From the IMG/VR virus record IMGVR_UViG_3300017776_000125, positions 1 to 28,465 of that record: a stretch of 28,465 bases of DNA; one strand, given 5' to 3'. A model generated the notes under the pieces. The model was not told the DNA's origin, did not search any database, and saw only the letters and a program-made list of their open reading frames with translations. The position numbers were made by a program, and so were the translations under genes. Of the stretch, positions 2,539 to 21,322 are shown in pieces. Numbering within the stretch: position 1 is the first letter of the stretch; each line of letters opens with the position of its first letter. This DNA comes from a virus.

Positions 2539-3618
2539 TTACTTGATTCCAATGAATATTGGTTCGTATTTTCTACCTGCAACATCTGGCCTTGCGAATC
2601 GCCCTATGTAGTTTTGAGATTGTTTCTTTTCTGTTTCTGTGCCTTCTAGTGTAGATTGTACCTTTGTTCCTTGTTGAGTTGATAAAGATAACCACCATAT
2701 CTGTATATCTTTAAATCCTGCCTCAACCATACAATCGTAGGTATCTTCTTCGAAGGTCTTATATGATTTTACATTTGCTACATTGAAACCTGCATATTTA
2801 CCAGGTTTCAATCCCTTATAGGCGTTCTTAATAGTCTGTAATAAGAAACCATTTCGCCATTCATCTTGTACTTTAAACTTGTTATATGATTGTTCAGGTT
2901 CATCACCGTATTGTTCGTGTCCTAGATAAGGTGGACTAGTAAATACAAAATCTAAACTATTGTCTTCAGGTATGTAAGTTTCTGAACCTTGTCTTAATAG
3001 TGTATATGATTTATGATCATGGCCATATTCATCTCTAATTTTTTCTAAACCTGCATATGTAGGAACACATGGGTCTGTGCCTATGTAATTAACACCAGCT
3101 GCAATTGCACCCATTAAACGACCACCATAACCCATACTAGGATCCCAAACTGTACCTGCTTCAGTACCCTCTAGTGGACTATCTTTTTCTACAAATATAT
3201 CATATAGAGTCGCAGCTGCTGTAGGTCTAAAATTAGATACCATTTGTGAGCCAGAGTATCTTCTTAACATTGCCCTCATATCTGATTTTGTTATCTTATG
3301 TGCTTCTCTCTTTGTAAAGAAAGTGCCTGTCAATATCTTATTGATACCTTTTTCTAAATGTGTTTCATCTTCCCATATCTCCATAGGCGTCTTCATAGTG
3401 CCACATTTGATTGACCATGCGTGGTGCATATAAGACCATGCAAGTGATAAACCATGTGTTGATTGACCTATAATTTTATGTTGTCTATCTAATAATGTAT
3501 CTCTGTTGAAAGATGTTAGTTTTGCAAATTCATCATTACGCCATTTTCTATCTTCAGGATAGTATGGAAAACCTTTATTGTCTTTCCAATCTCTAACTAC
3601 CTCTATTGCGTTTGTCAT
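2539..3618 (-). CDS. DNA methyltransferase (SPPY type)
   Basis: A 359-residue S-adenosylmethionine-dependent DNA methyltransferase. The AdoMet-binding motif I reads DPSMGYGG (about 159-166) and the catalytic motif IV reads TSPPY (227-231). The order, motif I before motif IV, resembles gamma-class enzymes, although SPPY is common in N4-cytosine enzymes, so target base and site cannot be read. There is no restriction endonuclease beside it, so it is an orphan, plausibly protecting phage DNA or marking it for a phage process. The start overlaps the stop of the preceding oxygenase as ATGA at 3615-3618 and has TGGAGA upstream, arguing for coupled translation. Confidence 0.85.
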   Translation of the reverse strand: MTNAIEVVRDWKDNKGFPYYPEDRKWRNDEFAKLTSFNRDTLLDRQHKIIGQSTHGLSLAWSYMHHAWSIKCGTMKTPMEIWEDETHLEKGINKILTGTFFTKREAHKITKSDMRAMLRRYSGSQMVSNFRPTAAATLYDIFVEKDSPLEGTEAGTVWDPSMGYGGRLMGAIAAGVNYIGTDPCVPTYAGLEKIRDEYGHDHKSYTLLRQGSETYIPEDNSLDFVFTSPPYLGHEQYGDEPEQSYNKFKVQDEWRNGFLLQTIKNAYKGLKPGKYAGFNVANVKSYKTFEEDTYDCMVEAGFKDIQIWWLSLSTQQGTKVQSTLEGTETEKKQSQNYIGRFARPDVAGRKYEPIFIGIK

Positions 3619-4169
3619 TTTGTCTCCATGTTTATATTAGTATTAAACGATATAACAGTTTTTCTTTCTTTAGATTTATTTACAGGTGACCTGTGCATTA
3701 CATGAGCGGGAAAAGTTAATAACTGTCCCTCTCTTAATTTTACATTTATAATTTTTTTTCTCAATGTATCATATAATTGTGTTGTTAATGATCTATCAGG
3801 CAGTTCAACATAATATACATTAGTCCAATTAGCATACCAGTGATTGTGCCAGTGATGATCACTCTTTTCATTATATTGTTGAAACCAGATATTGCCTGCT
3901 CTCCATCCCCACCTTTTTTTACCTAATTGTTTTGCAATCTTATTATAGTAAGGAGTGATCTTTTTAAAAAAAGGTTTGATGTATGTTTTCTTATCTGACT
4001 CTTCTTTACTCATAGACCAATCAGTTTTTGTCACATTAGCAAAACTAAGGTTAGGCATTTTATCAAAGTGTTCTAATAACTTTCTATTAAAGAAACTAAA
4101 TTTTTCTAATGTCGTTATCATATAAAAACTATTTAATGAGTGAAATGATATATTACTTTCTTTTTGCAT
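3615..4169 (-). CDS. 2OG-Fe(II) oxygenase, HxH type
   Basis: A 184-residue protein with the core of the 2OG-FeII_Oxy_5-like family. A histidine-rich strand HHWHNH (105-110) gives H108-x-H110 as the likely first metal ligands. The strand TNVYYVELP (116-124) follows, and FPAHVMHRSP (153-162) supplies the distal ligand H159. KERKTVISFN (167-176) supplies the basic residue for 2-oxoglutarate. Substrate is unknown. The start at 4169 overlaps the GNAT gene by 17 nt and has AAGG just upstream; an inner ATG at 4121 lacks one. Its stop overlaps the methyltransferase start, so the two are probably made together. Confidence 0.8.
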   Translation of the reverse strand: MQKESNISFHSLNSFYMITTLEKFSFFNRKLLEHFDKMPNLSFANVTKTDWSMSKEESDKKTYIKPFFKKITPYYNKIAKQLGKKRWGWRAGNIWFQQYNEKSDHHWHNHWYANWTNVYYVELPDRSLTTQLYDTLRKKIINVKLREGQLLTFPAHVMHRSPVNKSKERKTVISFNTNINMETK

Positions 4170-4578
4170 AAACCTTGCCTGGTAAAGTACCTCTTGCCCA
4201 ACTAGTTTCTCCTACTAGTTTCATTCCTATCTGTTCATAGAAACTACATGCCTTTGTGTTGTCTGATCTTACTGATAAGAATACATCTCTAGGACACCAC
4301 TCAAAAAAATTCTGTAATATTACTTTTGCATTACCACTACCTGGGTCATCATTTGCAATTTGATGTAATACAGTATCGCCTTTTTTCACATGAACATCGC
4401 CAATAGTTTGTTTTCTTTTAGCGTGATGAAAGGTAATCAATATACCTTCTTCTAAAATTAATTGTTGTTTTGCAATCATACGCCTCATGTAATCAGTTCT
4501 TACATGGGGAAACCATTTCTTATGTTTATAAAATATGGTTTTTACTTGTTCAAAATCTTCTTCTTTTGCTATTAACAT
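4153..4578 (-). CDS. GNAT-family N-acetyltransferase
   Basis: About 141 residues, single GNAT domain. The C-terminal half has the acetyl-CoA-binding beta4-alpha3 region (DDPGSGNAKVILQNFFEW) and the family's common ending VRSDNTKACSFYEQIGMKLVGE, in which the Tyr is the usual general acid. Acceptor is unknown. I prefer ATG at 4578, which has AGGTG 6 nt upstream; the in-frame GTG at 4587 has no ribosome binding site. The gene overlaps the small membrane ORF before it and the oxygenase after it. A consensus sigma70 promoter lies at 4602-4630, so it can start its own transcript. Confidence 0.8.
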   Translation of the reverse strand: MLIAKEEDFEQVKTIFYKHKKWFPHVRTDYMRRMIAKQQLILEEGILITFHHAKRKQTIGDVHVKKGDTVLHQIANDDPGSGNAKVILQNFFEWCPRDVFLSVRSDNTKACSFYEQIGMKLVGETSWARGTLPGKVYAKRK

Positions 4579-4663
4579 TTTTTTCACCTACACTATAACC
4601 TATTATAAACGATATTATCATAATTGTCAATATCGCAAGCATGTGCCATACTAAAAAACTCAT
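4550..4663 (-). CDS. Small single-pass membrane protein (37 aa)
   Basis: Too short for most gene finders. It starts at ATG 4663, overlapping the TGA of the preceding oxygenase as ATGA, and ends at TGA 4550-4552. It encodes MSFLVWHMLAILTIMIISFI followed by IGYSVGEKNVNSKRRRF: one strong transmembrane helix (about residues 3-22), a glycine pair, then a basic tail, as expected of a membrane protein with a cytoplasmic C-terminus. Support comes from the coupled start and coherent topology. Against it, the last third overlaps the GNAT gene and a consensus promoter lies within it. Function unknown. Confidence 0.5.
   Translation of the reverse strand: MSFLVWHMLAILTIMIISFIIGYSVGEKNVNSKRRRF
4602..4630 (-). 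promoter_or_regulatory. Perfect consensus sigma70 promoter
   Basis: TTGACA (4625-4630) and TATAAT (4602-4607) on the minus strand with exactly 17 nt between: a 12/12 match to the bacterial sigma70 consensus. It would start transcription near 4595, just upstream of the GNAT gene. The later motif TATAGTGTAG resembles part of the element shared by the promoters at 228 and 2429. Confidence 0.75.
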
Positions 4664-5286
4664 ATATCTACGCCTACCATTGTATTTAATCTATCATCAT
4701 CTAATAAACTTTTTATTTTAGGGTTATTATAACAATCAACCACAAGATGTAATCTATCAAAATCTGCTTTATTGTGAACAGCATGTGGTTTTGAAACGTC
4801 TGTATAATAATATTTTCCTGTTTCTAAATTATAGTGATGTTGTTCCTTACCTTCCCATAGGTAGAAGTGAACATTTAAACTTGTCTTTAATGGTATGTGT
4901 ATTCTAATAATATTCTTATTCTTAATTTCTTTATCTATTTTGTCTGTATGTTTTTTTATAGTTGTACCTGCTTTTAATCTCATAACTCTTACTCTTTCAA
5001 ACTCAGCAGGTATATGTGATAGTATTTCTTTTATAGGTAAACAATCAGGTTCTTCATATAGATGTGTCCATCTTAAATGAGATGGTTCTACATTACTTTT
5101 TAAAACACCAGGTTTTAAAATGTTGCCTACATCATCACTATATCCTCTAATTGATATAGCATCCCAATCACCCTTTGCGTTGTATTTTGTTTTTACAGGT
5201 GAATATTCAATGTTATTTAAAAACGCTACACACTTTCTTAAACTCTGTTTATATTGTGGTAAATCTAATTCTGTGAGGATTGCCAT
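4660..5286 (-). CDS. 2OG-Fe(II) oxygenase, aspartyl/asparaginyl beta-hydroxylase-like
   Basis: A 208-residue protein with the Asp/Asn beta-hydroxylase pattern. KKHTD (111-115) gives H113 and D115, RIHIPL (128-133) is a family strand, and KPHAVHNKADFDRLHLVVD (167-185) gives distal H168 and R178 for 2-oxoglutarate. Bacterial and phage members of this family are common, but their substrates are mostly unknown. Its first 22 nt overlap the end of the peptide deformylase gene, and its stop overlaps the small membrane ORF, so it sits in a tightly packed operon. Confidence 0.85.
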   Translation of the reverse strand: MAILTELDLPQYKQSLRKCVAFLNNIEYSPVKTKYNAKGDWDAISIRGYSDDVGNILKPGVLKSNVEPSHLRWTHLYEEPDCLPIKEILSHIPAEFERVRVMRLKAGTTIKKHTDKIDKEIKNKNIIRIHIPLKTSLNVHFYLWEGKEQHHYNLETGKYYYTDVSKPHAVHNKADFDRLHLVVDCYNNPKIKSLLDDDRLNTMVGVDI

Positions 5287-5816
5287 CTTTTTTGTGCCTT
5301 TTTAATTTCTTTATTTCTTTTTTTTATTGACATCTCTAGTTTTAATTTACTGACATGCTCTGTAAATACTATGCCTTGCATATGGTCAAATTCATGTTGA
5401 AAACATCTTGCCACAATACCTGACATATGTTCTTCTTTTTTTTCTAAATTTTCATCTAGGTACTCAACCGATATATCTTGTGGTCTTTCTATATCTAAAA
5501 ATAAGAAAGGAAAAGTTAGACAACCTTCTTTATATCTTATCAACTCTTTAGTGACATTTGTAATTTTAGGATTAATACAAACCCACTTCTTATTCTTTTG
5601 TATATTTAGGTGATCACCCATAACAAACATTCTATATGGTTTACCTACTTGATTAGCAGACAATCCTATACCACCATATTGTTTCATGGTCTCAAACATA
5701 TTATCTACAAATTCTTTTAGTTCTATCTTTTCTTCATCTTTGAATCTTTCAATATCAAATTCTGCTATTGATGATAATACTCTTGGATCGTTTGGTGGTA
5801 ATAATTTATATATCAT
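5265..5816 (-). CDS. def: Peptide deformylase
   Basis: A 183-residue metalloenzyme that removes formyl groups from new N-termini. All three family motifs are visible: GIGLSANQ (49-56; Ser replaces the usual Ala), EGCLTFP (97-103) with metal-binding C99, and QHEFDHMQG (140-148) with metal ligands H141 and H145 and catalytic E142. A Lys-rich C-terminal helix (about 156-183) is longer than in many short phage versions. Deformylase genes recur in marine phages, perhaps to keep protein maturation going late in infection. It starts at a TAATG junction with gp46. Confidence 0.93.
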   Translation of the reverse strand: MIYKLLPPNDPRVLSSIAEFDIERFKDEEKIELKEFVDNMFETMKQYGGIGLSANQVGKPYRMFVMGDHLNIQKNKKWVCINPKITNVTKELIRYKEGCLTFPFLFLDIERPQDISVEYLDENLEKKEEHMSGIVARCFQHEFDHMQGIVFTEHVSKLKLEMSIKKRNKEIKKAQKRWQSSQN

Positions 5817-7525
5817 TATGCTAACCTCGTAAAGTTTTTATATTTCTCAAATTTTATTATATTAGTAAACTTATCAAATAATATATCGCCTTTGTGAGAT
5901 ATAATAAATGTATTTTCACTTGTCAATGACTTTAATATTTTAAAGAAGTCTTCGGTACCTGAACCATCTAAACTACTATCAAATATCTCGTCAAGTATTA
6001 ATAAATTTGTATTTGTACTATTTTTCATCTTAGCGATTGTTCGCCATGTAAATAATAATGCAAGGTCTATTCTTAATTTTTCACCTTCACTAAAACTATT
6101 ATAAACAAACGTATCTCTAAATCTACTCTTAATTGTTTCGTTAAACTCCTCATCTAAATGAAAGTTAACAAAGAAGTCCATAGATTGTAGATATTTATTA
6201 ATTAAGTTATTCATTATAGGCAGATACTTTTTAATTATCTTTGCCTTGACACCTGTATCATTTAATATCTCTCTAGCAATATCAATGTATTTTTTTTCTT
6301 CTATAACTTTTTCTTTGTCAACATTTATTTGTTTTAGGTCCTCGTTCAATTGGTCTAATTCATGTGCAACCTTACCTGTGTTTTCTTTTTCTGATTGTAG
6401 TTTCTGTATCTCAATATCAAGTCTATTTGAGTGTCTATTGATTTCTGAAATAGAGGTGTTAACCTTTGCAACAGATATATCTAAATCATTTAATCTTTTT
6501 TCTACTGCTTTATATTCAGTTATCTTATCCTGTGTTTTGATTATCTCTGTTGATAGGTTTGTCAGGCCTGCTTCTAACTCTGATATTTTACTTTCTTCAC
6601 TTGATATTTTACTTTGTTTAAATGCTTTATCTATGGGTTGTGTACATGTATTACAAGTATCATTATTCTTAAAAAATTCTAAAGTCTTTTTATGATTAGA
6701 TAAATTAGTTTCTATCTTTGCCTCTAGTTTAGAAAGGTCAGCAGACTTTCTTGTAAACTTATCACCGCCCCATATCTCTGCCTTTGTTGATATAATCTTC
6801 TCATTTAACAATTGTAATTTTTGATTGTACTCATAATTACTTTTATCATTTTCTTTTAGTTGTGATCTTCGATCTTCTATGTCTGTGTTATCTCTATTTT
6901 GTATGTGTTCAAAATGGTCTTTCTGTAATTGATATTTCTCTGACATCAAATCATATCTATGCCTAACATCTACAATATTTTTAGATAGTTCAGCTTGTTT
7001 GTGTCTTAACAATAAATCCATATGACTAAAAACTCTTATGTCTAATATTTCCTCTACAACCTCTCGTCTGTATCTTGCTCGTAGGTGCATAAATGGCTCG
7101 TATGATGATGACCCTAATATTACTACTTGACAGAAAGCACGATAATTGCATTTTAAAATATTCTGTTCTAACATGTTTTGATAATCTACATTTGAGGCGT
7201 CTTGGTTTATCAATACATCATTACAATAAATCTCAAATAAATTAGGTTTGATACCTCTAATAATTCTATACTGTTTACCATTTGTTTCAAAATCAACCTG
7301 TATCTCACAATCAGCATTATTGATTGTGTTTACTAATTGCTCTTTCTTAATAGTTCTAAATGGTCTGTTAAATAGAGAAAAACATAATGCGTCAAGTAAA
7401 GTAGATTTACCTGAGCCGTTAGAACCTATGATTAATGTTGATGGTGACTTTGCCAGGTCAACTTCTATAAACTGATTACCAGTAGATAAAAAATTCTTCC
7501 ATCTTAACTTCTTAAAATATATCAT
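5816..7525 (-). CDS. 46: gp46 recombination nuclease subunit (Rad50/SbcC-like ATPase)
   Basis: A 569-residue SMC-type ATPase, the large partner of gp47 in the complex that resects DNA ends for recombination-dependent replication and host DNA breakdown. Walker A is GSNGSGKST (34-42). Long coiled coils (about 170-420) flank a zinc hook CNTC (291-294). The ABC signature FSEGEKLR, Walker B LLILDE and the H-loop IISHKG are near the C-terminus. It is close to T4 gp46 length. An oxygenase gene is inserted between gp47 and gp46, joined to this gene by an ATGA overlap at 7522-7525. Confidence 0.95.
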   Translation of the reverse strand: MIYFKKLRWKNFLSTGNQFIEVDLAKSPSTLIIGSNGSGKSTLLDALCFSLFNRPFRTIKKEQLVNTINNADCEIQVDFETNGKQYRIIRGIKPNLFEIYCNDVLINQDASNVDYQNMLEQNILKCNYRAFCQVVILGSSSYEPFMHLRARYRREVVEEILDIRVFSHMDLLLRHKQAELSKNIVDVRHRYDLMSEKYQLQKDHFEHIQNRDNTDIEDRRSQLKENDKSNYEYNQKLQLLNEKIISTKAEIWGGDKFTRKSADLSKLEAKIETNLSNHKKTLEFFKNNDTCNTCTQPIDKAFKQSKISSEESKISELEAGLTNLSTEIIKTQDKITEYKAVEKRLNDLDISVAKVNTSISEINRHSNRLDIEIQKLQSEKENTGKVAHELDQLNEDLKQINVDKEKVIEEKKYIDIAREILNDTGVKAKIIKKYLPIMNNLINKYLQSMDFFVNFHLDEEFNETIKSRFRDTFVYNSFSEGEKLRIDLALLFTWRTIAKMKNSTNTNLLILDEIFDSSLDGSGTEDFFKILKSLTSENTFIISHKGDILFDKFTNIIKFEKYKNFTRLA

Positions 7526-8130
7526 CTACAAATTATATCAAAACTAATTGATATTCTCTCCTCGTCTGTATTACTTGGTTCTACAAGATGATCTAGGTAC
7601 GAAGGCCATATCGCAAGTAGTCCTTCCATTATACTTAATTTTTTAAACTCACCTTTATCAAAATTACTCACTAAAAAATTATTGCCCATTGCACCAGGTC
7701 TTGGATCTCTAAACACGATACGACCAGAATCTTCAGGTACCTTAACATAATAAGTTCCTGATAGACTGTATTGTCCATGTTGATGTATTATATTATAATC
7801 ATTTTTTCTATTTACATTTGCCCATAGTTGTGCTATTTGCATATCTTTAACATCTAAATTTAAATGTTTTACAAACTCCATAATCTCATCTACTAGTGGT
7901 TTATAATTTTCATCTGTAGCGTTTGTTGAATGACTTTGCCAACCACCTCTGTTTGATTTTCTAACAGACTTATTATTTTGTTCTTCATTTAGAATATAAC
8001 CTGTAAAATCATCATTGAAGGTAACTCTAGTTTCACTTCTCATAAAATCCCATAGTTGTGTATACCAATATGGCGTAGGCCATAGATTTTCTTGTCTGAT
8101 AATTTTTTTACTTGGTTTAGGTTTAGGCAT
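7522..8130 (-). CDS. 2OG-Fe(II) oxygenase, 2OG-FeII_Oxy_5 type
   Basis: A 202-residue protein with a clear 2OG-FeII_Oxy_5 core: IIHQHGQYSLSGTYYV (114-129) giving H116-x-H118, a strand around GRIVFRDPRP, then IWPSYLDHLVEP (174-185) giving H181, and ERISISFD (191-198) giving R192. The N-terminus carries a WPTPYW segment and lies in a region typical of the family. It lies between gp47 (8-nt overlap) and gp46 (ATGA overlap), breaking the otherwise adjacent 47/46 pair, so it should be co-expressed with the recombination nuclease. Substrate unknown. Confidence 0.87.
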   Translation of the reverse strand: MPKPKPSKKIIRQENLWPTPYWYTQLWDFMRSETRVTFNDDFTGYILNEEQNNKSVRKSNRGGWQSHSTNATDENYKPLVDEIMEFVKHLNLDVKDMQIAQLWANVNRKNDYNIIHQHGQYSLSGTYYVKVPEDSGRIVFRDPRPGAMGNNFLVSNFDKGEFKKLSIMEGLLAIWPSYLDHLVEPSNTDEERISISFDIICR

Positions 8131-9187
8131 TGTCGTTTGCTTCTATGTAAAATGATTTTAAATACTCTTTTAGTTTAGTTTTATTTACATCTGTTTCAAG
8201 TTGATCTACATAGTTATTTAGGAATGTGACAGTATCCTCACCCATTTCAACTATGTCATCTCTTACACTTGCTTTTATATCAGAGTAATCTTCTATAATA
8301 TTTAAATCATGTACCGTTATCTCATTATACAACCTTTCAACAAATTTGTCAAATTGGTTATCATCTGTCTTATTTAAGACTATTAATTTTATAAAGTGAT
8401 TATGATAAGGTTGTATATCATAGTTTATGTAATCTTTTTTCTTGTCATCATATATTATTTTTTTATGAATAGTTAGAGGATTCCATATTCTTTCAATCTC
8501 TCTTGTTTCTGTATCAAAGATATGAAAACCTTTAGGGTCTTGGTAATCTGACCATGTCATCTCATATTGAGCACCACAATAAAATATCTGACCATCATCT
8601 GTATGTTTGTGAAAGTGACCTGAAATTACTCTATCAAATCTTTTGAAGTCTGCCTTATCATTACCAAACTCATTGATTACACCATTCTGCATTTCTATAC
8701 CTTTAATCTCTAAATGACCAAAACATAAATCTGCCTTTGCTGTATTCAACATCTGTATAGATTCTTCTTTAGTATCATCACATATCCAAGGCATTAATAA
8801 TATAGAAGTGCCATCAAAATCTACGACTTTAGGTTTAGTGTATATAAATGGTTCATTAACACCATCAAAACTTGTATATAAATTTTCTATAGCATTTACT
8901 TCATTTGTATTTTTAAAATAGGTATCATGGTTACCTATGATTATATGTGTATCAATCTTTTCTTTATATAATCTGTCCCAGAATTGTTGTCTGTAAATAG
9001 AGGCAGTTTGAAAGTTAATAAATTTTCTTCTATCAACAACATCGCCTAAATGTATTAGTGTTTTAATATTGTTTTTTTCTAGGTAAGGAAAAAAGATTTC
9101 GTTATAAAATCTTAATTGATATTTTCTAAATGCTTCGCTATCATTACGAACACCGAAGTGTGTATCATTTAATATTGCAATTTTCAT
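8123..9187 (-). CDS. 47: gp47 recombination nuclease subunit (Mre11/SbcD-like)
   Basis: A 354-residue calcineurin-like phosphoesterase, nuclease partner of gp46. Metal-binding motifs are in order: NDTH (7-10), GDVVD (48-52), GNHD (85-88), GHLE (157-160), and GHFHKH (190-195). The C-terminal third should bind gp46. The length matches T4 gp47. It begins at a TAATG junction with the gp55 stop, so the late sigma factor and the nuclease are translationally coupled. Confidence 0.95.
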   Translation of the reverse strand: MKIAILNDTHFGVRNDSEAFRKYQLRFYNEIFFPYLEKNNIKTLIHLGDVVDRRKFINFQTASIYRQQFWDRLYKEKIDTHIIIGNHDTYFKNTNEVNAIENLYTSFDGVNEPFIYTKPKVVDFDGTSILLMPWICDDTKEESIQMLNTAKADLCFGHLEIKGIEMQNGVINEFGNDKADFKRFDRVISGHFHKHTDDGQIFYCGAQYEMTWSDYQDPKGFHIFDTETREIERIWNPLTIHKKIIYDDKKKDYINYDIQPYHNHFIKLIVLNKTDDNQFDKFVERLYNEITVHDLNIIEDYSDIKASVRDDIVEMGEDTVTFLNNYVDQLETDVNKTKLKEYLKSFYIEANDNA

Positions 9188-9735
9188 TATGTATCTAAAA
9201 CGCTTGTGTAATTTCTTCTTTTTCTTTTCTTAACTTTTATTTCACTCTTTTTTGGTTCTTCGGTTGTTGGTCTATTCTTTCTTAAAAATTCTAAAAATTG
9301 ATTCTTATATTCTGTATTAGTATCTCCAGGTAGTGTATCAAACTCATCAATACCTGCCTGTTCAATCATCTTATATTTTATATTTGCTTGTTTTTTCTCT
9401 TTCTGTATTCTTCTAATAAACGCATAATATATTATCTGCGTAAAATAAGCAAATGGGTTATTTGATTTTTGTGGGTTAAAATTATTTAAATATTGTAAGC
9501 AGTTTTCTATACCATCACTTATCATGTCATCTCTAAATGTGTAATTTATAAAGTTAGGTCTGTATGATAAATGATTTGCTATCTTTAAAAAACATTCACC
9601 AATGTAGTTAGTCACAGGAGGTCTTTTTCTTTTTCTTTTATCTGCCTTTTCACAACGATCCTTGTATTCAATCATTGCCTGTAAAAACTCTTTATTGCTT
9701 ACATAATGTACTGATTTTTTCTTTGTTCTAGTCAT
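9187..9735 (-). CDS. 55: gp55 late sigma factor
   Basis: A 182-residue relative of T4 gp55, the small sigma factor that recognises late boxes when RNA polymerase is tethered to the sliding clamp. The sigma region 2-like core spans about residues 66-118: TFRDDMISDGIENCLQYLNN, then FAYFTQIIYYAFIRRIQKEK. The tail (about 160-175) is very basic. Late boxes in this window are consistent with its activity. The promoter at 9742-9770 puts the predicted transcript start at or within a base or two of the ATG; there is no Shine-Dalgarno sequence, so the mRNA may be leaderless. Confidence 0.9.
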   Translation of the reverse strand: MTRTKKKSVHYVSNKEFLQAMIEYKDRCEKADKRKRKRPPVTNYIGECFLKIANHLSYRPNFINYTFRDDMISDGIENCLQYLNNFNPQKSNNPFAYFTQIIYYAFIRRIQKEKKQANIKYKMIEQAGIDEFDTLPGDTNTEYKNQFLEFLRKNRPTTEEPKKSEIKVKKRKRRNYTSVLDT

Positions 9736-9741
9736 AATTAT

Positions 9742-9770
9742 ATAATACTACATTTTGTTGTTTTTGTCAA
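9742..9770 (-). promoter_or_regulatory. sigma70-like promoter for gp55
   Basis: TTGACA (9765-9770), 17 nt, TATTAT (9742-9747) on the minus strand. The -35 lies in the end of the upstream oxygenase gene. This lets host polymerase make the late sigma factor before late transcription begins. Confidence 0.65.
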
Positions 9771-10353
9771 GGACATGCACAATATAATCCTTATCTTCTC
9801 TACATAGTATTTCCATGTTTATACTTACTCTCCATTCTTTTGAGTTGTGTTTAGTTGCGTCATGTATGAGATAATTTGGGAATAATATTAACTCGTTATT
9901 ATCTGGTTGATAGTATATCCATTTATTATCTACTTTAAACTTTACAGGACCTGATAATTTCTTGTTTATTCTAGGTATATTTAAGTAATATACAGCATTA
10001 ATAGTAGATGATTTTATATGATTATGTGGCACAAAGTTATAGTATTCTTTATTAGTAATACATGCCCAACATATTCTTTTACTTTTTTTTGATACTGTAA
10101 AATTAAATAACTGTTGTGCTACTCTATAAAATTTATCATATAGGTCATTAATAAGATTATTATACTTTTTGTCATCTTTATTATATAATATCTCAAAATT
10201 AGTAGTTGATTTATTTGAATTAGGTTGGTTATCCCAAAGGTCTTTTATACCTAATAAATTTTTTATTATCTTATCTTTTTGATATTTTGTAAACTTATGA
10301 AAGTCTTTTATTGATATTATAGGTACGTTCTTTAATGGTATATGTAAATTCAT
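9748..10353 (-). CDS. 2OG-Fe(II) oxygenase, HxH type
   Basis: A 201-residue, Asn/Lys-rich protein. The core reads VPHNHIKSSTINAVYYLNIP (108-127), giving H110-x-H112. Then LILFPNYLIHDA (155-166) gives H164, and EWRVSINME (173-181) gives R175. This is the 2OG-FeII_Oxy_5-like layout also seen in the genes at 7522 and 3615, but the sequences are far apart, so these are not recent duplicates. Base composition looks more AT-rich than the neighbours. It sits between the Sm-like gene and gp55, after a 71-nt gap that holds hairpins and a plus-strand promoter. Confidence 0.8.
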   Translation of the reverse strand: MNLHIPLKNVPIISIKDFHKFTKYQKDKIIKNLLGIKDLWDNQPNSNKSTTNFEILYNKDDKKYNNLINDLYDKFYRVAQQLFNFTVSKKSKRICWACITNKEYYNFVPHNHIKSSTINAVYYLNIPRINKKLSGPVKFKVDNKWIYYQPDNNELILFPNYLIHDATKHNSKEWRVSINMEILCREDKDYIVHVLDKNNKM

Positions 10354-10364
10354 TTCACGGTCGC

Positions 10365-10392
10365 TTGACAGGTTAGGTTTTTCTGATATAAT
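10365..10392 (+). promoter_or_regulatory. Plus-strand sigma70-like promoter opposing the operon
   Basis: TTGACA (10365-10370), 16 nt, TATAAT (10387-10392), with TGA directly before the -10 forming an extended -10. It points right, against all genes in the window, and would start an RNA near 10399 that runs through hairpins and antisense to the 3' end of the gene at 10425-10850. Confidence 0.6.
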
Positions 10393-10424
10393 ACCCTATG
10401 TGGGTTGGTCACCAGGGACCTTAG
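10393..10424. repeat. Paired short inverted repeats in the gap between oxygenase and Sm-like genes
   Basis: Two adjacent inverted repeats: ACCC/GGGT around a 5-nt loop (10393-10405) and GGTC/GACC around a 6-nt loop (about 10407-10420). Either strand's RNA could fold. Neither is followed by a clear U-tract, so they do not look like a standard terminator. Confidence 0.5.
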
Positions 10425-10850
10425 CTAGTGTATCTTTTTGCTAGGCATATCAAAGTATTCTTTTAAATCATCAAGGTTCTCTTTTTGAGTTTTATTATCA
10501 TAATTATCATAGTCTTCATCTGACATATCTCTTTCTATAAAGGCAGGAAGTTTTTGATTTTGTTTGTTTATTGTATCTACTAAATGATGATATCTTCTAG
10601 TAAAAGGCTCTGTGGCATTTGCGATAGTCATAATCTTATCTTTTGGTATTGTTATAATTTTATCATTAGTAAACCCAACCCATTTAACCAATGCGATATA
10701 ATCTGATATCCCCATCTCGGTTATTTTAGGCACGTATTTAATTAACATTGGCTCAGATAATCTTATAAGCGTTTTATTATCTTTAATTTGTTCTTTAGGA
10801 ATTACACAACAGATTTCTTCGCCAGATATTAGTCGAATTATTTTAACCAT
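10425..10850 (-). CDS. Sm-like small protein, conserved in marine T4-like phages
   Basis: A 141-residue protein starting MVKIIRLISGEEICCVIPKE. The opening 'hydrophobic strand, SGEE, hydrophobic strand' resembles the first half of an Sm/LSm fold, as do the later strands LIRLSEPMLIKYVP and DKIITIPKDKIMTIAN (about 28-95). The C-terminal 45 residues are acidic and Tyr/Asn-rich (MSDEDYDNYDN), probably disordered. If the Sm-like reading holds, RNA binding would be possible, but that is inference. It follows uvsW after 1 nt, so it is co-translated with it. Confidence 0.6.
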   Translation of the reverse strand: MVKIIRLISGEEICCVIPKEQIKDNKTLIRLSEPMLIKYVPKITEMGISDYIALVKWVGFTNDKIITIPKDKIMTIANATEPFTRRYHHLVDTINKQNQKLPAFIERDMSDEDYDNYDNKTQKENLDDLKEYFDMPSKKIH

Positions 10851-10851
10851 A

Positions 10852-12306
10852 TTACTTTAGTTCCACACTATGGATCTCATATGTGAAACCCTCCTCGTTG
10901 TAAATATTTATTCTTTCCTGAAAGTGGGTCAGCGTAAAGTTCTTCTTTTCTTTATATGTCAGGTCATCTGATATGTCATATAATGTCGCTGTATCTTTAC
11001 TATCACCTATCCTTAAACCTCTACCTATTGATTGTAGATTTCTTATCCTAGATTTAGAAGGACTAGCAAAAATAATGTTATGCAAGTTCCGTATGTTAAT
11101 CCCCGTAGAGAAAGTCCCATAGGAAGCCACGATAATAGCGTCATCGCTTTTTTCTGTGATTGCTCTAACTTGTTCTCTTTGTTGGGTGTCAACTCCTCCA
11201 TAGACAAAGAAGACTTCTCGGTCTCCTGCTTTGTTTCGTATAAGTTCATATAACTCCTTACCATGTTTTTCTACAAGTTGAAATAGTATTAAAGTATTAC
11301 CATTCAAGGCTGTTGCTAGATTTCTTATATACTTATTTCTTTTCTCACTCTGAGCTAGATATTCTAACTCTTTATGATACTTTTCTTTGTAAATCGCTTT
11401 TGCTTCTGCCTCTGTATGTTTTAATACTAGGCATATTATTTTTAAATCTGCAAGTTGTTTTTTATCTATTAGTTCTCTAGTAGATACAACTTTGTTTACT
11501 CTACCAAATAGACCTTCTAATACTAACTTATGGGTTTTAGTACCATCTAAGGTACCAGTCATACCAATACGATATTTACAATCGGTCAGTTTCGTCATTA
11601 TTTTCGTCAAAGATACAGCTTTAAATAAATGGGCTTCATCACCTATAACAGCGCCGAAGTCAGCGAAAAAAGTTTTTGGGAGTTTATATAGAGATTGCCA
11701 AGTAGAGATAACTATTCGTTTGCCTTCTTCTATTTCGTAACCATGGTAGTTTCTACTTACATTATTCTCTACATCAAATCCATAGTCTTTAAAGTCTTTG
11801 TATAGTTGTTCTACTAATGATGTTGTTGGTACTATTATGAGTATGTTGTTATCTATCACGTTTAGATAGTGTCTTACTAATAGATATGCGATAAGTGATT
11901 TACCAGACGCAGTAGGCGATAATATTAATCCTCTCTCGTAATCTAAGGCATATTTAAATGCGTCAATTTGATAATCTCTCGGTGTGATAGAGAGTTCATA
12001 AGACTTGACTAATTCGTCTATATCGGCGGCTGTGTGCGATTGAATTGTATGAATCTCGTTGTTTTCTTCTATTTCTATGTTTTTCTTATTACACCAGTCT
12101 TTTAGATAGGGATACAATCCAACATATAATTGACCTGTGGCATATGAATATAATCGTATCTTACCATCCCAAACTCTGTTTCTAAATTGTGGTGTAAACT
12201 TATAACCAGGTACCTCAAAAGAAAAATAATCTGTTAATTCACGTCTAACATCTGCTTCTGCCTCTATCTGTAAATAGACCGTATTTAATTTTTTTACTTT
12301 AATCAT
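10852..12306 (-). CDS. uvsW: UvsW recombination helicase
   Basis: A 484-residue superfamily 2 helicase. In T4, UvsW unwinds R-loops and branched DNA and switches replication from origins to recombination. Visible motifs: PTASGKS (131-137, Walker A), GDEAH (222-226, Walker B), MTGTLDG (249-255), and QSIGRGLRIG near residue 435 (motif VI with arginine fingers). The first about 100 residues form the small N-terminal DNA-binding domain of this family (FEVPGYKFTPQFRNRVWDGK). The length is near that of T4 UvsW. It starts at an ATGA overlap with the preceding oxygenase. Confidence 0.95.
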   Translation of the reverse strand: MIKVKKLNTVYLQIEAEADVRRELTDYFSFEVPGYKFTPQFRNRVWDGKIRLYSYATGQLYVGLYPYLKDWCNKKNIEIEENNEIHTIQSHTAADIDELVKSYELSITPRDYQIDAFKYALDYERGLILSPTASGKSLIAYLLVRHYLNVIDNNILIIVPTTSLVEQLYKDFKDYGFDVENNVSRNYHGYEIEEGKRIVISTWQSLYKLPKTFFADFGAVIGDEAHLFKAVSLTKIMTKLTDCKYRIGMTGTLDGTKTHKLVLEGLFGRVNKVVSTRELIDKKQLADLKIICLVLKHTEAEAKAIYKEKYHKELEYLAQSEKRNKYIRNLATALNGNTLILFQLVEKHGKELYELIRNKAGDREVFFVYGGVDTQQREQVRAITEKSDDAIIVASYGTFSTGINIRNLHNIIFASPSKSRIRNLQSIGRGLRIGDSKDTATLYDISDDLTYKEKKNFTLTHFQERINIYNEEGFTYEIHSVELK

Positions 12307-12824
12307 ATTTTAAATGTAAATACCATAACAGCTCTAAGGCCTTTTTTAGGAAAATATAGATAGTGAGGTTGATTGTCAAAACAAACACCTTTGTACTTCT
12401 CTGGTCTTACTTTTATTTCCTTCTTACCATTCTTAATTACTGTATATGATTTTTTATCACACTCATTTATATATACAAGCAGTTGTGAATGATTATATTC
12501 ATGGTCTTGGTGTACATTACATTTTTCATAACCATTGTTATATGTTAGATTGATACTTATTCTAAGCACATCTATTATAGTCATAGTATTATTTTTTGCA
12601 AAATTATCTAATATACCTAAACAGAATTTGCCCATATATGACCTAAAATATTCTCCTTCTTCTCTTTCCTCAGGTCTTCTTAATACCGTATGTTTTAGAA
12701 AAGGTTTATTCTTTCTACCGACAACACTCCTGTTCTCAATAAACCAAGGAAAGTCATTACTAAAAATATGATTTTCAATATACGCTATCTGTTCCTTACT
12801 TAAAAAATCTTTATCTATTATCAT
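12303..12824 (-). CDS. 2OG-Fe(II) oxygenase, paralogue B of a tandem pair
   Basis: A 173-residue oxygenase. NVHQDHEYNHSQLLVYIN (103-120) gives H105-x-D107, HYLYFPKKGLRAVMVFTFK gives H154 and R164, and KKSYTVI (124-130) is a shared family strand. It aligns along its full length with the next gene upstream (12821-13336): both begin with a KDFL segment, share FP-F-I-x and the same motif spacing, and end VFTFK or VYTFK. It is therefore a tandem duplicate. ATGA overlaps join it to both neighbours, including uvsW. Confidence 0.82.
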   Translation of the reverse strand: MIIDKDFLSKEQIAYIENHIFSNDFPWFIENRSVVGRKNKPFLKHTVLRRPEEREEGEYFRSYMGKFCLGILDNFAKNNTMTIIDVLRISINLTYNNGYEKCNVHQDHEYNHSQLLVYINECDKKSYTVIKNGKKEIKVRPEKYKGVCFDNQPHYLYFPKKGLRAVMVFTFKI

Positions 12825-13336
12825 TTAAATGTATATACCAATACAACTCTATGACCTATTCTTGGATAATAATGATAGTGATGATTGTCACCAAAACTTA
12901 CTGCACTATATTGTATAGGTTTTATTTTATCTATAGGTTTTCTATTTTCATCTAATATTACTGTGTATGATCTTTTGTCCTTTACATCATTACAATATAT
13001 TAATAATTGTTTGTGTGGTTCTTTATGATCTGTATGTTCTAATGATTTTTTTATACCCACGTTAAATGTTAGATTTACAGAGCACCTTAATATTTCCTTA
13101 TATCGTATATCATGTTTATTGCAAAACGTATTTAATATATCCTTATACATATCTACGTTGCCTGTATTCCAATCTTTATCATATCTTCGTAAACATATAT
13201 GTTCCATCATTGTGTAGTCGTCATCAAATGTAGAATGTGGTTGTATGAAATAAGGAAAATCAGCCTTTAGAATAAACTCTGATATAAAGTCCTTATGTTT
13301 ATCTTTTAAAAAATCTTTATCTTTGATTATCTTCAT
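12821..13336 (-). CDS. 2OG-Fe(II) oxygenase, paralogue A of a tandem pair
   Basis: 171 residues from ATG 13336 (MKIIKDKDFLKDKHKDFISE). A longer frame reaches 13429 but its extra N-terminus is just the overlapping end of the preceding gene, and the paralogue has no such extension. SLEHTDHKEPHKQLLIYCND (98-117) gives H101-x-D103. HYHYYPRIGHRVVLVYTFK gives H153 (the His conserved in the paralogue) and R163. It overlaps the gene before it by 20 nt. Substrate unknown. Confidence 0.82.
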   Translation of the reverse strand: MKIIKDKDFLKDKHKDFISEFILKADFPYFIQPHSTFDDDYTMMEHICLRRYDKDWNTGNVDMYKDILNTFCNKHDIRYKEILRCSVNLTFNVGIKKSLEHTDHKEPHKQLLIYCNDVKDKRSYTVILDENRKPIDKIKPIQYSAVSFGDNHHYHYYPRIGHRVVLVYTFK

Positions 13337-13856
13337 AATTAAAATAGCCACCCATAATATATCTATCATGGTTATCAGGACATTGTTGTCCTCTATGTAG
13401 ATGTGTAAAGTAGGCTGGGAACATAGCAACCCTACCTTTTATAGATTTAATTACTTCACCTGTATAAAACTCTGTACCACAATTATGATCTGATAGATAT
13501 ATCATAAAGTTTAATACTCTTTTGTTATTATCATATCCATGCTCACAATGAAAATCTTTGAACCAGTTGCCTGGTTTAAACCATTTAAACCTAAGTTCTT
13601 TTAATACCCAAGGATAAGGTGTCAAAGCACTTTCCTTAAATGTTTTTGTGTATGTATCTATTAATGTTTTTAATTGATCTGAAAATGTTATATTGTTCGT
13701 AAAGTATGATGAATAACCATACTTATTATTATCAAATTCAGATGTAAGATTTTTATATTTTTCTACTAACTCATCACACTCATTATTTGACAAGAAATTA
13801 TCTTGTACCAACGTGAAATCTTTATGTTTTTTCTTTGTTTGATAATCGCTGCTCAT
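13317..13856 (-). CDS. 2OG-Fe(II) oxygenase, prolyl-4-hydroxylase-like with HxE site
   Basis: A 179-residue oxygenase of the P4H-like group. FKDFHCEHGYDNNKRVLNFM (99-118) gives H103-x-E105, so Glu replaces the usual Asp. YLSDHNCGTEFY (120-131) is the conserved strand, FPAYFTHLHRG (146-156) gives H154, and DRYIMGGYFN (164-173) gives R165. The Glu form also occurs in the oxygenase beside gp17, which has the same FPA-F-H-H-G layout, and HxE is known in active members of the clavaminate synthase group. It overlaps its neighbours by 35 and 20 nt. Confidence 0.83.
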   Translation of the reverse strand: MSSDYQTKKKHKDFTLVQDNFLSNNECDELVEKYKNLTSEFDNNKYGYSSYFTNNITFSDQLKTLIDTYTKTFKESALTPYPWVLKELRFKWFKPGNWFKDFHCEHGYDNNKRVLNFMIYLSDHNCGTEFYTGEVIKSIKGRVAMFPAYFTHLHRGQQCPDNHDRYIMGGYFNYEDNQR

Positions 13857-14577
13857 GTAAGTTTTTATCTGCCTTTTGCATTGCCTGTATTTTTTCTGGT
13901 ATCTTAAATTCAGCAGGTAATCCTAAATGAGGTCTGCCATCATAGACACAGTTTTCACCATATGGTCCATCTACGTTGTTATAATGAAGGAATACTTGAG
14001 CGTGATTATCACCTAAAAAAGGTTCTCTCCAATGTTCTATTTCACAACCTCTATAAACTATCATATCACCAGGTTTCATATGAATAGGCACACCTCTATT
14101 ACCAAAGCCCCCTGTCTTATCTACCCACATAGGCCAGTCATATTTTTCCCAATCTTGTTTTCTACCTTTTAAATTATTATTGTCATATCCTAAACATAAT
14201 GTAGTTGACACTTCACAACTTGGTCTATCTTTGTGTCTTTTTAAATCATCACCGTTCTTGTATAAACGCCAATATGAATATGTAGGTTTAAGATTTAAAC
14301 CTGTAATATTTCTCATGCCTTGTAAACCATATTGTAATAATGTTTCCATTGCTGGATCAGCATAACATGAGTAAGTATTAGGCACTTGTTGATCTTTATA
14401 TGTGCCATCAAGCTCTGCTCTATAACCAGGCCATTTACTATTGACCATAGTCTTTGCTCTATTAGCTCTCATAAGAGCATAACCGTATAGATAATCTGCA
14501 AGTATAGGTGGTATAAATTCTTTTATAACACAATACTTATTATCTTTGTAAAATTTTTCTGTGTCTTTTATTGCCAT
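13822..14577 (-). CDS. 2OG-Fe(II) oxygenase family protein
   Basis: 251 residues from ATG 14577, which has TAGGA upstream; a GTG at 14595 is less likely. It starts with a KFYKDNKYCVIKEFI-type helix, then YWRLYKNGDDLKRHKDRPSC (102-121) giving H115-x-D117, TTLCLGY, and GDMIVYRGCEIEHWREPF (170-187) giving H182. QVFLHYN (194-200) ends the core; the usual 2OG-binding Arg is not obvious and R184 is a candidate. A Gly/Trp-rich insertion (about 136-165) is unusual. The C-terminus is Lys/Gln-rich. The start overlaps the end of the preceding oxygenase by 10 nt. Confidence 0.78.
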   Translation of the reverse strand: MAIKDTEKFYKDNKYCVIKEFIPPILADYLYGYALMRANRAKTMVNSKWPGYRAELDGTYKDQQVPNTYSCYADPAMETLLQYGLQGMRNITGLNLKPTYSYWRLYKNGDDLKRHKDRPSCEVSTTLCLGYDNNNLKGRKQDWEKYDWPMWVDKTGGFGNRGVPIHMKPGDMIVYRGCEIEHWREPFLGDNHAQVFLHYNNVDGPYGENCVYDGRPHLGLPAEFKIPEKIQAMQKADKNLHEQRLSNKEKT

Positions 14578-15461
14578 GGTTTTCCTAAACTCCACAATAC
14601 TAATGAGTATCTAGTTCCTCTTGTACAAGGTGTGACACAATGATATGTAAAACTAGGGAATATGATAACTGATCCTTGAGGTCTTATTTCTTCACATACC
14701 TTAAATCTTTTCTTACCTGCGTGAGCGCCTAAATCAAACTTTAGATTACCACCTGCATAATTATTAGGATTAGTTAGATTAACAGTCATACTTATTTTTC
14801 TTACTTTATCCCACATATGTATATTATCAGTAAATCCAGGTGCTAAAGATTTCTTATCTCTTTTAAGAGGTATATCAGCTCCTCTCATGTCAGGTTCAGG
14901 TTTACCATCAGGTCTCATAATCACAAAACCTTTATCATCTCTTTTAGGTGGTTTAAATTGTGGTACCTTACCATCTTTTACTTTTACAGCTGCTTTATAT
15001 GCACTTCTAAAATCAGATGATCCATCAGCATGCCAACCATAGAAACCACCATTTTCTTTTCTACCGTGATATACTGTAAACTGAAATGACTCAGAAAAAT
15101 CCCACTTCCAGTTCCAACCTGCTTGTGCGTTTGCGTGATGTATATATGGATGAAATAAATCGTATAACCATTTGTCATTCAACCATGAAATATCACTATC
15201 TCTTACATAGGCTCTTTCAACGTCAATGCCTTTTTTAGCAAGCGTTTCTCTGTTTGCGCCTCCTGTTATCATAGTATCAGACATCTTCCTGCCTTGACTA
15301 TCTATGCCACCTTTTTCTTTACCATCAAAGGTAGCAGCTACTTTTGATACACCATGACTTTCATCCACAACCATCTTTGATAAACCATGTGATATAATTT
15401 TCTTACATACATCTGGCTTGATAGCACTCTTGTAAAACATGTATGAATTTCTTAATTGCAT
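14568..15461 (-). CDS. 2OG-Fe(II) oxygenase, PKHD-type
   Basis: 297 residues from ATG 15461, which has AGGAG 7 nt upstream and overlaps the uvsY stop as TAATG; a start at 15491 is less likely. The core resembles PKHD-type hydroxylases: YHGRKENGGFYGWHADGSSD (131-150) gives H144-x-D146, MTVNLTNPNNYAGGNLKFD gives the Gly-Gly strand, FPSFTYHCVTP (268-278) gives H274, and GTRYSLVLW (282-290) gives R284. A charged insertion of about 70 residues (150-220) separates the first metal motif from the barrel, making it the largest oxygenase here. Confidence 0.87.
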   Translation of the reverse strand: MQLRNSYMFYKSAIKPDVCKKIISHGLSKMVVDESHGVSKVAATFDGKEKGGIDSQGRKMSDTMITGGANRETLAKKGIDVERAYVRDSDISWLNDKWLYDLFHPYIHHANAQAGWNWKWDFSESFQFTVYHGRKENGGFYGWHADGSSDFRSAYKAAVKVKDGKVPQFKPPKRDDKGFVIMRPDGKPEPDMRGADIPLKRDKKSLAPGFTDNIHMWDKVRKISMTVNLTNPNNYAGGNLKFDLGAHAGKKRFKVCEEIRPQGSVIIFPSFTYHCVTPCTRGTRYSLVLWSLGKPWQ

Positions 15462-16596: not shown

Positions 16597-16791
16597 CTAT
16601 TTATCTGTTTGTTTATCTACTTCTTGCCACTCTTTTTCAGTCGCTTCTTGTATCAGTTTTTGATCTGACTCTGATACCTTATCTTCTTCTTTCATATTAT
16701 CTATTCTATCCCATAATTTATCCCACACGCTTACTGATGGTTTCGAACAAGAAACTATAAAAATTGTTAAGAGGATTAGTAGATATTTCAT
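16597..16791 (-). CDS. Small lipoprotein
   Basis: A 64-residue protein with a type II signal peptide: MKYLLILLTIFIVSCSKPSV, where lipobox IVSC puts the acylated cysteine at position 15. The remainder is short, charged and mostly helical (DKLWDRIDNMKEEDKVSESD). The protein would be anchored to the inner or outer membrane on the periplasmic side. Phage lipoproteins of this size are sometimes superinfection-exclusion factors, but nothing in the sequence proves this. The start is fixed: an in-frame TAA lies just upstream. There is no ribosome binding site, and a CATAAATA box ends 5 nt before ATG. Confidence 0.75.
   Translation of the reverse strand: MKYLLILLTIFIVSCSKPSVSVWDKLWDRIDNMKEEDKVSESDQKLIQEATEKEWQEVDKQTDK
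16598..16605 (-). promoter_or_regulatory. Late-type promoter box before the gp3-like gene (GATAAATA)
   Basis: 7 of 8 matches to TATAAATA. The box touches the stop codon of the lipoprotein gene and ends exactly 5 nt before the next ATG, which places the expected start of transcription on the A of that ATG. Confidence 0.45.
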
Positions 16792-21320: not shown

Positions 21321-21322
21321 TA

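Follow-up and report, generated by a model that had tools for sequence, protein, structure and literature searches.

The 28,465-nucleotide stretch of DNA analysed here (the whole of IMG/VR virus record IMGVR_UViG_3300017776_000125, 32% G+C; hereafter the window) carries ten genes, ox1 to ox10, whose products are predicted to belong either to the 2-oxoglutarate (2OG)-Fe(II) oxygenase superfamily itself or to a Pfam family classed under it. All ten frames lie on the minus strand, just where an initial annotation made from the letters alone had put them. We propose that they are ten independent accessory oxygenases with separate targets, most likely amino-acid side chains in proteins of the host or the phage, and give this reading a probability of about 0.5. 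It is our first choice because the genes appear to have been gained independently, in one family the slots between core genes keep to their lineages, the genes are individually constrained, and the folds are of prolyl 4-hydroxylase (P4H), PHD, PKHD and Asp-hydroxylase type. The array is no assembly artefact, since a second IMG/VR record (L011) is 99.9% identical to the window over 21,057 columns and records bearing five different IMG dataset numbers contain ox4 at 100% identity.

The placement of these genes among core genes was also as first described. ox1 (27893–28465; 5′ end outside the window) abuts gp17 with a gap of 0, and ox2 (14568–15461), ox3 (13822–14577), ox4 (13317–13856), ox5 (12821–13336) and ox6 (12303–12824) lie between uvsY and uvsW. 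ox7 (9748–10353) sits between an Sm-like gene and gp55, ox8 (7522–8130) between gp47 and gp46, ox9 (4660–5286) between a peptide deformylase and a GNAT-like acetyltransferase, and ox10 (3615–4169) between the latter and a methyltransferase gene; the start of ox5 was set at the presumed ATG of MKIIKDKDFL (13336).

Profile searches and structure prediction had been suggested as checks on the oxygenase assignments. The former placed seven of the ten (ox1, ox2, ox4, ox7, ox8, ox9, ox10) in 2OG families of Pfam (E = 5.6e-5 to 3.5e-22), and the other three, ox3, ox5 and ox6, matched no Pfam family at E ≤ 1. The P4H-like ox1 (HxE…H…K) passed the cut-off of PF13640 (1.9e-9) and matched a bacterial P4H in the PDB at 3.3e-6; its paralogue ox4, likewise P4H-like with HxE, scored below it (5.6e-5; 24.4 versus the curated 27 bits). 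The PKHD-like ox2 (HxD…H…R) was over the same cut-off (2.1e-10) and matched PiuC/PKHD in the PDB at 0.0012, while among the NCBIfam equivalogs for PKHD-type hydroxylase YbiX and its kin the best model gave 47.7 bits against the 143 needed. ox9, an Asp/Asn-hydroxylase-type protein (HxD…H…R), reached 45.5 bits with PF05118 (9.3e-12; curated cut-off 22.6 bits) and matched an L-proline cis-4-hydroxylase at 0.0016. Finally, ox7 and ox8 (both HxH…H…R) and ox10 (HxH…H) exceeded the curated 27 bits of PF13759 with 39.8 (6.1e-10), 79.1 (3.5e-22) and 37.4 bits (3.6e-9), respectively; ox8 also passed the cut-off of TIGR02466 and has 2rg4 and 3bvc as relatives in the PDB. We assign these three to PF13759 without calling them proven 2OG oxygenases, because HxH departs from the canonical facial triad. 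We know of no chemistry described for an all-histidine iron site in this fold.

PHROGs profiles matched nine of the ten proteins at E ≤ 2.4e-13 (ox4 with phrog_61 at 2.7e-21, ox5 with phrog_274 at 4.6e-21), and ox9 found only a family of unknown function, at 0.018. PADLOC returned its generic '2OG' model for four proteins and, for ox8 only, a marginal Cas5c match, from which we draw no evidence of defence. By all-against-all BLAST the set resolves into six lineages (ox1/ox4; ox2; ox3; ox5/ox6; ox7/ox8/ox10; ox9), so that the original count of at least four layouts was right in seeing several and too low in number. The closest paralogues in the window share only 36–37% identity (ox5–ox6: 36%, 2e-29). 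On this ground we rejected recent tandem duplication of a single oxygenase gene as the local source of the array, an extremely improbable origin: ox5 and ox6 are adjacent members of one family, and ox1/ox4 and ox7/ox8/ox10 are paralogues as such an event would produce, but several of these lineages also occupy the same slots in relatives.

The predicted metal ligands are conserved within the lineages. With the window proteins counted, the ox1/ox4 group has the first His in 73 of 73 sequences, Glu in 68 (Asp in 3) and the distal His in 67; H144, D146 and H274 occur in 101/101 sequences of the ox2 group, and H115, D117 and H182 in all 68 distinct sequences of the ox3 group. The ox5/ox6 group retains His in 31, Asp in 30 and the distal His in 33 of 33, and the ox9 group has its ligands in 21/21. 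An Arg or Lys follows the distal His in 68/73 (ox1/ox4), 101/101 (ox2), 33/33 (ox5/ox6), 21/21 (ox9) and, in the PF13759 group, 91/105 sequences (12 gaps).

AlphaFold models were made for ox3 and ox6, and ox5 was placed by homology to ox6. The ox3 model (predicted local distance difference test score, pLDDT, 92) had the Pseudomonas putida P4H as its top PDB match at 1.4e-10 (Z 16.4; root-mean-square deviation, rmsd, 3.0 over 172 residues), and aligned with SnoN at Z 17.2 (rmsd 3.3 over 194) and with PHD2 at Z 16.0. The ox6 model (pLDDT 91) matched PHD2 at 2.8e-6, with Z scores of 16.6 for 6n1f (rmsd 2.7 over 166), 16.3 for the PKHD-type 3dkq, 15.9 for PiuC, 15.0 for PHD2 and 14.1 for AlkB. Among the structure matches listed for both proteins all were 2OG-type enzymes, those of ox3 being headed by SnoN, P. 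putida P4H and PHD2. Together with the conserved residues, these confident models place ox3 and ox6 in a double-stranded beta-helix fold of prolyl-hydroxylase type. P. putida P4H (PDB 4j25, 4iw3; also solved with EF-Tu) and PHD2 are among the closest solved folds to ox3, yet at approximately 11–17% identity their substrates are not transferable; at the sequence level, the ox3 family profile found none of the solved structures at E ≤ 0.1. An alignment of 25 ox3 relatives has H115, D117 and H182 invariant. Taken together, ox1 to ox6 and ox9 are predicted members of the 2OG-Fe(II) oxygenase superfamily; for ox3, ox5 and ox6 we base membership on their PHROG families and on fold (ox3, ox6) or on homology to ox6 and the same residues (ox5).

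Two of these families carry other names in PHROGs, where ox3 falls into phrog_2954, 'ferrochelatase', and ox5 and ox6 into phrog_274, 'DNA endonuclease V'. Both labels are wrong as judged from profiles and models, and both families are predicted 2OG-type oxygenases. A ferrochelatase identity for ox3 was rejected on the Pfam tests, which carry the point: ox3 does not match ferrochelatase PF00762 at E ≤ 1, and PF00762 was found in 0/10 phage records (five of which carry phrog_2954 genes) versus 8/14 control genomes. The structure matches listed for ox3 likewise include no ferrochelatase, an absence to which we give no weight. The phrog_2954 profile, conversely, had no match in the 14 control genomes, E. 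coli included. Likewise, neither ox5 nor ox6 matches T4 endonuclease V PF03013 at E ≤ 1; in T4 itself, PF03013 detects endonuclease V at 65,095–65,355 and the phrog_274 profile has no match at E ≤ 0.001. Eight phrog_274 proteins have H105, D107, H154 and R164, the usual set of 2OG enzymes, among their invariant residues, as does a 12-sequence alignment, and six of these eight are annotated as 'DNA endonuclease V' (three in HTVC008M, two in ACG-2014b, one in Mosig). The three HTVC008M annotations (KC465899; 24214–24702, 26549–27034, 76476–76958) are phrog_274 matches with the oxygenase residues in a genome that has no PF03013 match. In S-SCSM1, a real PF03013 gene (70,260–70,553) directly follows a phrog_274 gene (69,667–70,269), and this adjacency is a possible source of the name.

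The ferrochelatase label is widespread. Using tblastn, ox3 matched 156 phage records; among 60 listed, 43 name the gene ferrochelatase, three only 2OG oxygenase and one both (MW574966). The oxygenase name stands alone in S-SCSM2R, S-CREM1 and the GenBank entry of S-SCSM1, whose RefSeq twin says ferrochelatase; some annotators had thus already recognised the oxygenase identity. In pelagiphages, one or two ferrochelatases are described that lie together with 2OG genes, in every case next to one, and are treated as a heme-pathway gene (PMC9599517), a ferrochelatase (phrog2954) is reported together with a 2OG oxygenase (phrog61) as enriched in seasonal viruses (PMC11561400), and 'Hyp. with ferrochetalase domain' is the name of cluster T4-GC 615 in a cyanophage table (PMC3037559), the cluster number carried by the S-PM2 gene. 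Among open-licence PMC papers we found no published correction of the label. The Phold paper links phage proteins of PHROG 61 by structure to human EGLN3 and prolyl hydroxylases, and neither 'ferrochelatase' nor 'endonuclease V' appears in its main text (PMC12774648). Claims about phage 'ferrochelatases' need revision: where they are phrog_2954 members, such genes belong among the oxygenases themselves.

Independent gain is seen where relatives lack some of the genes. Three loci whose UvsW is 89–96% identical to that of the window (L006, L008, L010) are without the ox4–ox5–ox6 block and ox7, and L008 is also without ox10. In L010, the bases corresponding to window positions 13847 and 12302 sit 2 bases apart, and those corresponding to 10364 and 9771 sit 21 bases apart; L016 and L021 are without ox8 and have 15 and 8 bases there instead. 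Relatives without ox4 also have the sequence at the ox3/ox4 boundary that contains the ox4 start codon. Across 18 loci that span uvsY to GNAT (not dereplicated), there is one oxygenase in six (ox9), two in seven (ox2 and ox9), three in L016, four in L008, five in L021, and eight in both L011 and the window. Only L021 breaks the nesting, with two PF13759 genes in slots that contain none in the window. As the number runs from one to eight, nearly nested, over these loci, the genes seem to have been added stepwise and not as one unit. The constant member is ox9, present in all 18, and a PF05118 oxygenase separates deformylase and GNAT (window 4153–5816) in 14/14 dereplicated junctions with both flanking genes present, the GNAT match being weak.

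These observations bear on the proposal, made in the initial annotation, that all ten genes form one coordinated modification system. All are on one strand, and eight of the nine with a known upstream gene overlap it, versus five of nine other genes from uvsW to vWA (with ox5 starting at 13336); this ATGA/TAATG coupling to core genes had been taken as a sign of coordination. Overlap also occurs at three junctions without oxygenases, however: empty gp47–gp46 slots show a 4-base overlap in 15/19 dereplicated cases, empty gp46–deformylase slots an overlap of 4 or 1 in 17/19, and empty gp55–gp47 slots a 1-base overlap in 17 of 25 listed (of 26). The exceptions are empty uvsY–uvsW slots, with a gap of 7–9 bases in 10/12, and the Sm-like–gp55 slot, with more than 100 bases. 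Thus, core genes often, though not everywhere, overlap where no oxygenase is present, and overlap loses its force as a sign of coordination. With genes gained separately, a set that is not inherited together and ox9 alone in 6/18 loci, we consider a single coordinated system very unlikely.

The density of oxygenase genes, the other sign invoked for a special system, is unexceptional among marine T4-like phages, which are known, as first noted, to carry several such enzymes. Whole-genome counts (matches of four PHROG profiles, merged by coordinate by hand) gave approximately 12 oxygenase places for Mosig (15 when PF05118 matches are added, one of which is below cut-off), approximately 20 in HTVC008M, two in Melnitz, eight in P-SSM4, 14 in ACG-2014b, eight in S-PM2 and approximately 23 domains in S-SCSM1 (two in one gene). 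T4 has no convincing oxygenase (one marginal match, 4.5e-4), and in each of two long records from the same group as the window (G001, G002) there is one oxygenase plus one PF05118 gene. Mosig holds ten oxygenases in 16,239–44,747 (28.5 kb), the density of the window. Like the window, Mosig EXVC030M (MT647606) has the same backbone order and some of the same slots filled (uvsY–uvsW, gp47–gp46); unlike the window, it has other oxygenase lineages in these two slots and six of its ten oxygenases in a separate block beside an annotated heme oxygenase and phycocyanobilin:ferredoxin oxidoreductase.

Oxygenase sets of this kind were already known in marine phages. For Synechococcus phage S-SCSM1, 24 2OG-Fe(II) oxygenase genes have been published (PMC9602691); like the window phage it is a T4-like marine phage whose many divergent oxygenases fall into several Pfam subfamilies, and unlike it, it is a cyanophage with a larger genome, 229 kb. 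The cyanophage table of Sullivan et al. 2010 (PMC3037559) lists 2OG-Fe(II) oxygenase clusters T4-GC 104, 240, 412 and 611 and phytanoyl-CoA dioxygenase clusters T4-GC 101 and 155, with up to five genes of the four 2OG clusters per genome and zero in 2/16 genomes. In P-SSM4, a T4-GC 412 gene stands just before uvsW, in the slot of ox2–ox6.

We counted the tenants of 11 junctions between core genes (dereplicated at 95% identity; other frames counted if at least 120 amino acids long), in loci fetched by similarity to uvsW, gp17, ox1, ox3, ox4, ox6, ox7 and ox10, so that the census leans towards oxygenase carriers. In the set without the oxygenase queries (80 loci from the uvsW query, four phage records and the window), at least one oxygenase occupies 35/75 uvsY–uvsW junctions. 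The nine junctions from uvsY to vWA hold 81 oxygenase domains and 22 other frames, one of which is a piece of the split vWA gene of L011. Of the remaining frames, ten belong to a single methyltransferase family and all lie between uvsW and the Sm-like gene; five are tryptophan-halogenase-like, two GDSL-like, one is a protein-isoaspartate methyltransferase, and three are of other kinds. Pfam was used to check a single example for each of five kinds (methyltransferase and GDSL-like below cut-offs), and the rest were assigned by eye. The tryptophan-halogenase-like genes all occur in the gp55–gp47 slot, in 5/32 dereplicated junctions (L008 at 5666–7198, L020, L022, L025 and L219; PF04820 at 3.2e-107 for L008, the other four by eye). 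Similarly, HTVC008M has an annotated tryptophan halogenase (prnA) beside a phytanoyl-CoA-dioxygenase gene, next to gp17. The gp3–uvsY slot of L028, L033, L039, L075 and L076 holds one to five genes, among them long genes that carry an RGGPGD- or KGGPGD-type stretch close to the start.

In the PF13759 group, which alone the slot test covers, lineage follows slot: on a tree of 26 rows with weak deep branches, the slot labels need 8 changes versus 15.1 in shuffles, a value as low being reached in 0/200, and the gp47–gp46 slot is filled by two separate lineages. This fidelity matters for a shared metabolic role, in which the oxygenases would jointly deplete 2-oxoglutarate, supply respiration with succinate and alter the host nitrogen signal, the exact substrate being minor, as proposed for cyanophages (Sullivan et al. 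2010, PMC3037559). Such a role would account for many copies without a common substrate, for unrelated families in neighbouring slots and for their widely variable number. But within the PF13759 group lineages stay with their slots, and all of the tested genes are constrained, which suggests individual roles, and the NtcA signalling in question is described there for cyanobacteria (PMC3037559), whereas the nearest cultured relative of the window infects SAR11. We regard a shared metabolic role as unlikely.

Constraint was estimated from the ratio of nonsynonymous to synonymous substitution rates (dN/dS) against relatives at least 60% identical, with the six best relatives per gene in the main set; this covered nine genes, ox10 having no usable relative. 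Values were 0.08–0.19 for ox9, 0.09 for ox4 (versus L225), 0.12 for ox5, 0.10–0.21 for ox3, 0.13–0.27 for ox2, 0.19 for ox6 (one relative) and ox7, 0.24 for ox1 (one relative, L137) and 0.21–0.31 for ox8. Nine of the ten genes are thus under purifying selection, with constraint about like that of deformylase, GNAT and vWA (0.10–0.26).

Genes have also moved between phages. As synonymous divergence from L225 has reached saturation in uvsW and in the Sm-like gene, the proportion of synonymous differences (pS) was used instead. Against L225/L219, pS was 0.27 for ox7, 0.44 for ox4, 0.51–0.52 for ox2, ox3 and ox5 and 0.62 for ox8, with six core genes at 0.59–0.76. The low value for ox7 relative to the core genes marks it as horizontally acquired; its similarity begins and stops near the gene's own ends. 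For ox1, synonymous divergence (dS) from L137 is 0.08, and that of gp17 is 0.88. Two further loci with two IMG dataset numbers (L124, L208) are approximately 100% identical to window 26267–28465 through ox1 and some 0.7–0.8 kb of gp17, then 78%, a drop inside gp17 that we read from the alignment as recent recombination between two phage backbones. Transfer of ox1 as a lone cassette was rejected for these two loci, as approximately 5 kb upstream is shared too (via L206), which indicates a larger block ending inside gp17.

What, then, would the enzymes act on? Nucleic acid had been offered as one target, and AlkB- or TET/JBP-like modification or repair of phage or host DNA or RNA would explain the placement among uvsY, uvsW, gp46 and gp47. 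The ox6 fold indeed resembles AlkB and PHD2 to a similar degree, and a putative N6/N4 DNA methyltransferase (below Pfam cut-off) adjoins ox10. Yet none of the ten proteins matches the AlkB or TET/JBP families of Pfam at E ≤ 1, the same families lie far from replication genes elsewhere, as in the Mosig block beside the heme oxygenase and phycocyanobilin:ferredoxin oxidoreductase annotations, and the 'DNA endonuclease V' labels are wrong. Nucleic-acid modification is, in our view, quite improbable. The oxygenases might instead make or alter metabolites or amino acids, in concert with the flavin halogenases and methyltransferases that relatives carry in this region. The halogenase-like genes of the gp55–gp47 slot and the prnA neighbourhood of HTVC008M fit such small-molecule tailoring, as do the resemblance of the ox3 fold to antibiotic-tailoring enzymes (SnoN is an antibiotic epimerase) and the match of ox9 to L-proline cis-4-hydroxylase. 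With no biosynthetic core enzyme or halogenase among the window genes examined, and with partners that vary between relatives, we think this a doubtful explanation.

We favour separate protein hydroxylases, for which the following scheme can be drawn. On a fixed core backbone, a gene or short gene run would become established where two core genes meet, in many cases so that start and stop overlap; phages would then exchange or lose junction genes by recombination, with selection keeping the protein sequence. Each enzyme would spend O2 and 2-oxoglutarate to hydroxylate a target of its own, and not one shared substrate: presumably proline for the P4H/PHD-like ox1, ox3, ox4, ox5 and ox6, and Asp, Asn or Pro for ox9.

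Several points weigh against this reading. Fold does not fix substrate in the models, with Z scores for ox6 of 14.1 (AlkB) and 15.0 (PHD2) and for ox3 of 17.2 (SnoN) and 16.4 (P4H), and the absence of a common unit is no proof that targets differ. Regarding the active sites, ox7, ox8 and ox10 have HxH, not HxD/E, and thus no carboxylate ligand at the expected place; HxH is found in 97/105 members of their group and HxD in eight, and the solved but uncharacterised 2rg4 and 3bvc likewise have HxH in the alignment. ox3 is without the usual Arg and has Q194 in 68/68, and some phrog_274 relatives of ox5 and ox6 have lost the motif (H to Q in 2/33, D to L in 3/33). Slot use is uneven as well: the junctions upstream of uvsY (gp23–gp3, gp3–uvsY) hold 3 oxygenases versus 20 other frames, three of the nine junctions from uvsY to vWA (uvsW–Sm-like, gp55–gp47, methyltransferase–vWA) hold none, and an oxygenase stands directly before gp17 in only 7/72 loci. 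Finally, relatives less than 50% identical give dN/dS of 0.35–0.43, and the oxygenases are less constrained than uvsY, uvsW, gp55, gp47 and gp46 (0.04–0.13).

A more speculative extension, to which we attach little probability, is that core-gene junctions are reserved slots for interchangeable tailoring enzymes—mostly 2OG-type, with halogenases and methyltransferases as alternatives—each slot with its own lineage, that would jointly alter the proteins of the infected host, perhaps to counter its defences or to retune translation next to the deformylase–ox9–acetyltransferase trio, the PF13759 members doing so with an all-histidine iron site. Either way, this trio, the near-nested presence/absence variants at known junctions and the slot-specific lineages offer concrete tests for the substrates of marine-phage oxygenases.

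As for the genomic setting, the window derives from a T4-like marine phage, probably one of the Mosig/HTVC008M group with a SAR11 host, the host being taken from the nearest cultured relatives. By UvsW, the closest of these is Pelagibacter phage Mosig (64% identity), and HTVC008M and Methylophilales phage Melnitz are at 56%. The order from gp17 to vWA is that of marine T4-like phages, by synteny with annotated relatives. On the minus strand, the neighbours of the oxygenase genes are uvsW helicase (core; 10852–12306), the Sm-like gene of T4-GC 139 type (10425–10850; PF16243 at 5.6e-5, below cut-off), the core genes for gp55 late sigma factor (9187–9735; synteny with annotated Mosig and HTVC008M) and, also by synteny, the recombination endonuclease subunits gp47 (8123–9187) and gp46 (5816–7525), peptide deformylase (5265–5816; synteny with the annotated deformylase of Mosig and Melnitz), the GNAT-like acetyltransferase (4153–4587; FR47 at 0.0013 and Acetyltransf_1 at 0.0092, both below cut-off) and the N6_N4-type methyltransferase with a TSPPY motif (2539–3618; PF01555 at 7.5e-4, below cut-off).

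Beside the Sm-like gene, window 10365–10392 on the plus strand reads as a perfect sigma-70-type promoter (TTGACA-16-TATAAT, 12/12, with TG before the second box) that is directed opposite to the window's annotated genes and into the Sm-like gene, and may drive an antisense RNA. Most bases of both boxes are invariant in 31 aligned loci chosen from 48 distinct sequences; the scan as a whole gave 6 promoter-like sites versus 8.4 in shuffles, no excess. A structured RNA downstream of the Sm-like gene was considered and rejected, as RNAalifold gave 0 pairs on the 31 sequences and an opposite-strand promoter fits the conserved element better; a search with Rfam gave no match anywhere in the window at the database's own thresholds, and none at E ≤ 1 within 9600–10600.

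Elsewhere in the window, positions 276–2426 encode a 716-aa protein that, by eye, has a metallopeptidase and vWA look (HEVSH and DWSGSM motifs), gives no Pfam match at 0.01 and is split in L011. A 64-aa protein at 16597–16791, between gp23 and the next tail gene, has a lipoprotein-like start by eye, LLILLTIFIVSC, and three consecutive, similar-looking small proteins of 124–133 aa lie between gp20 and gp21 (20534–21697).

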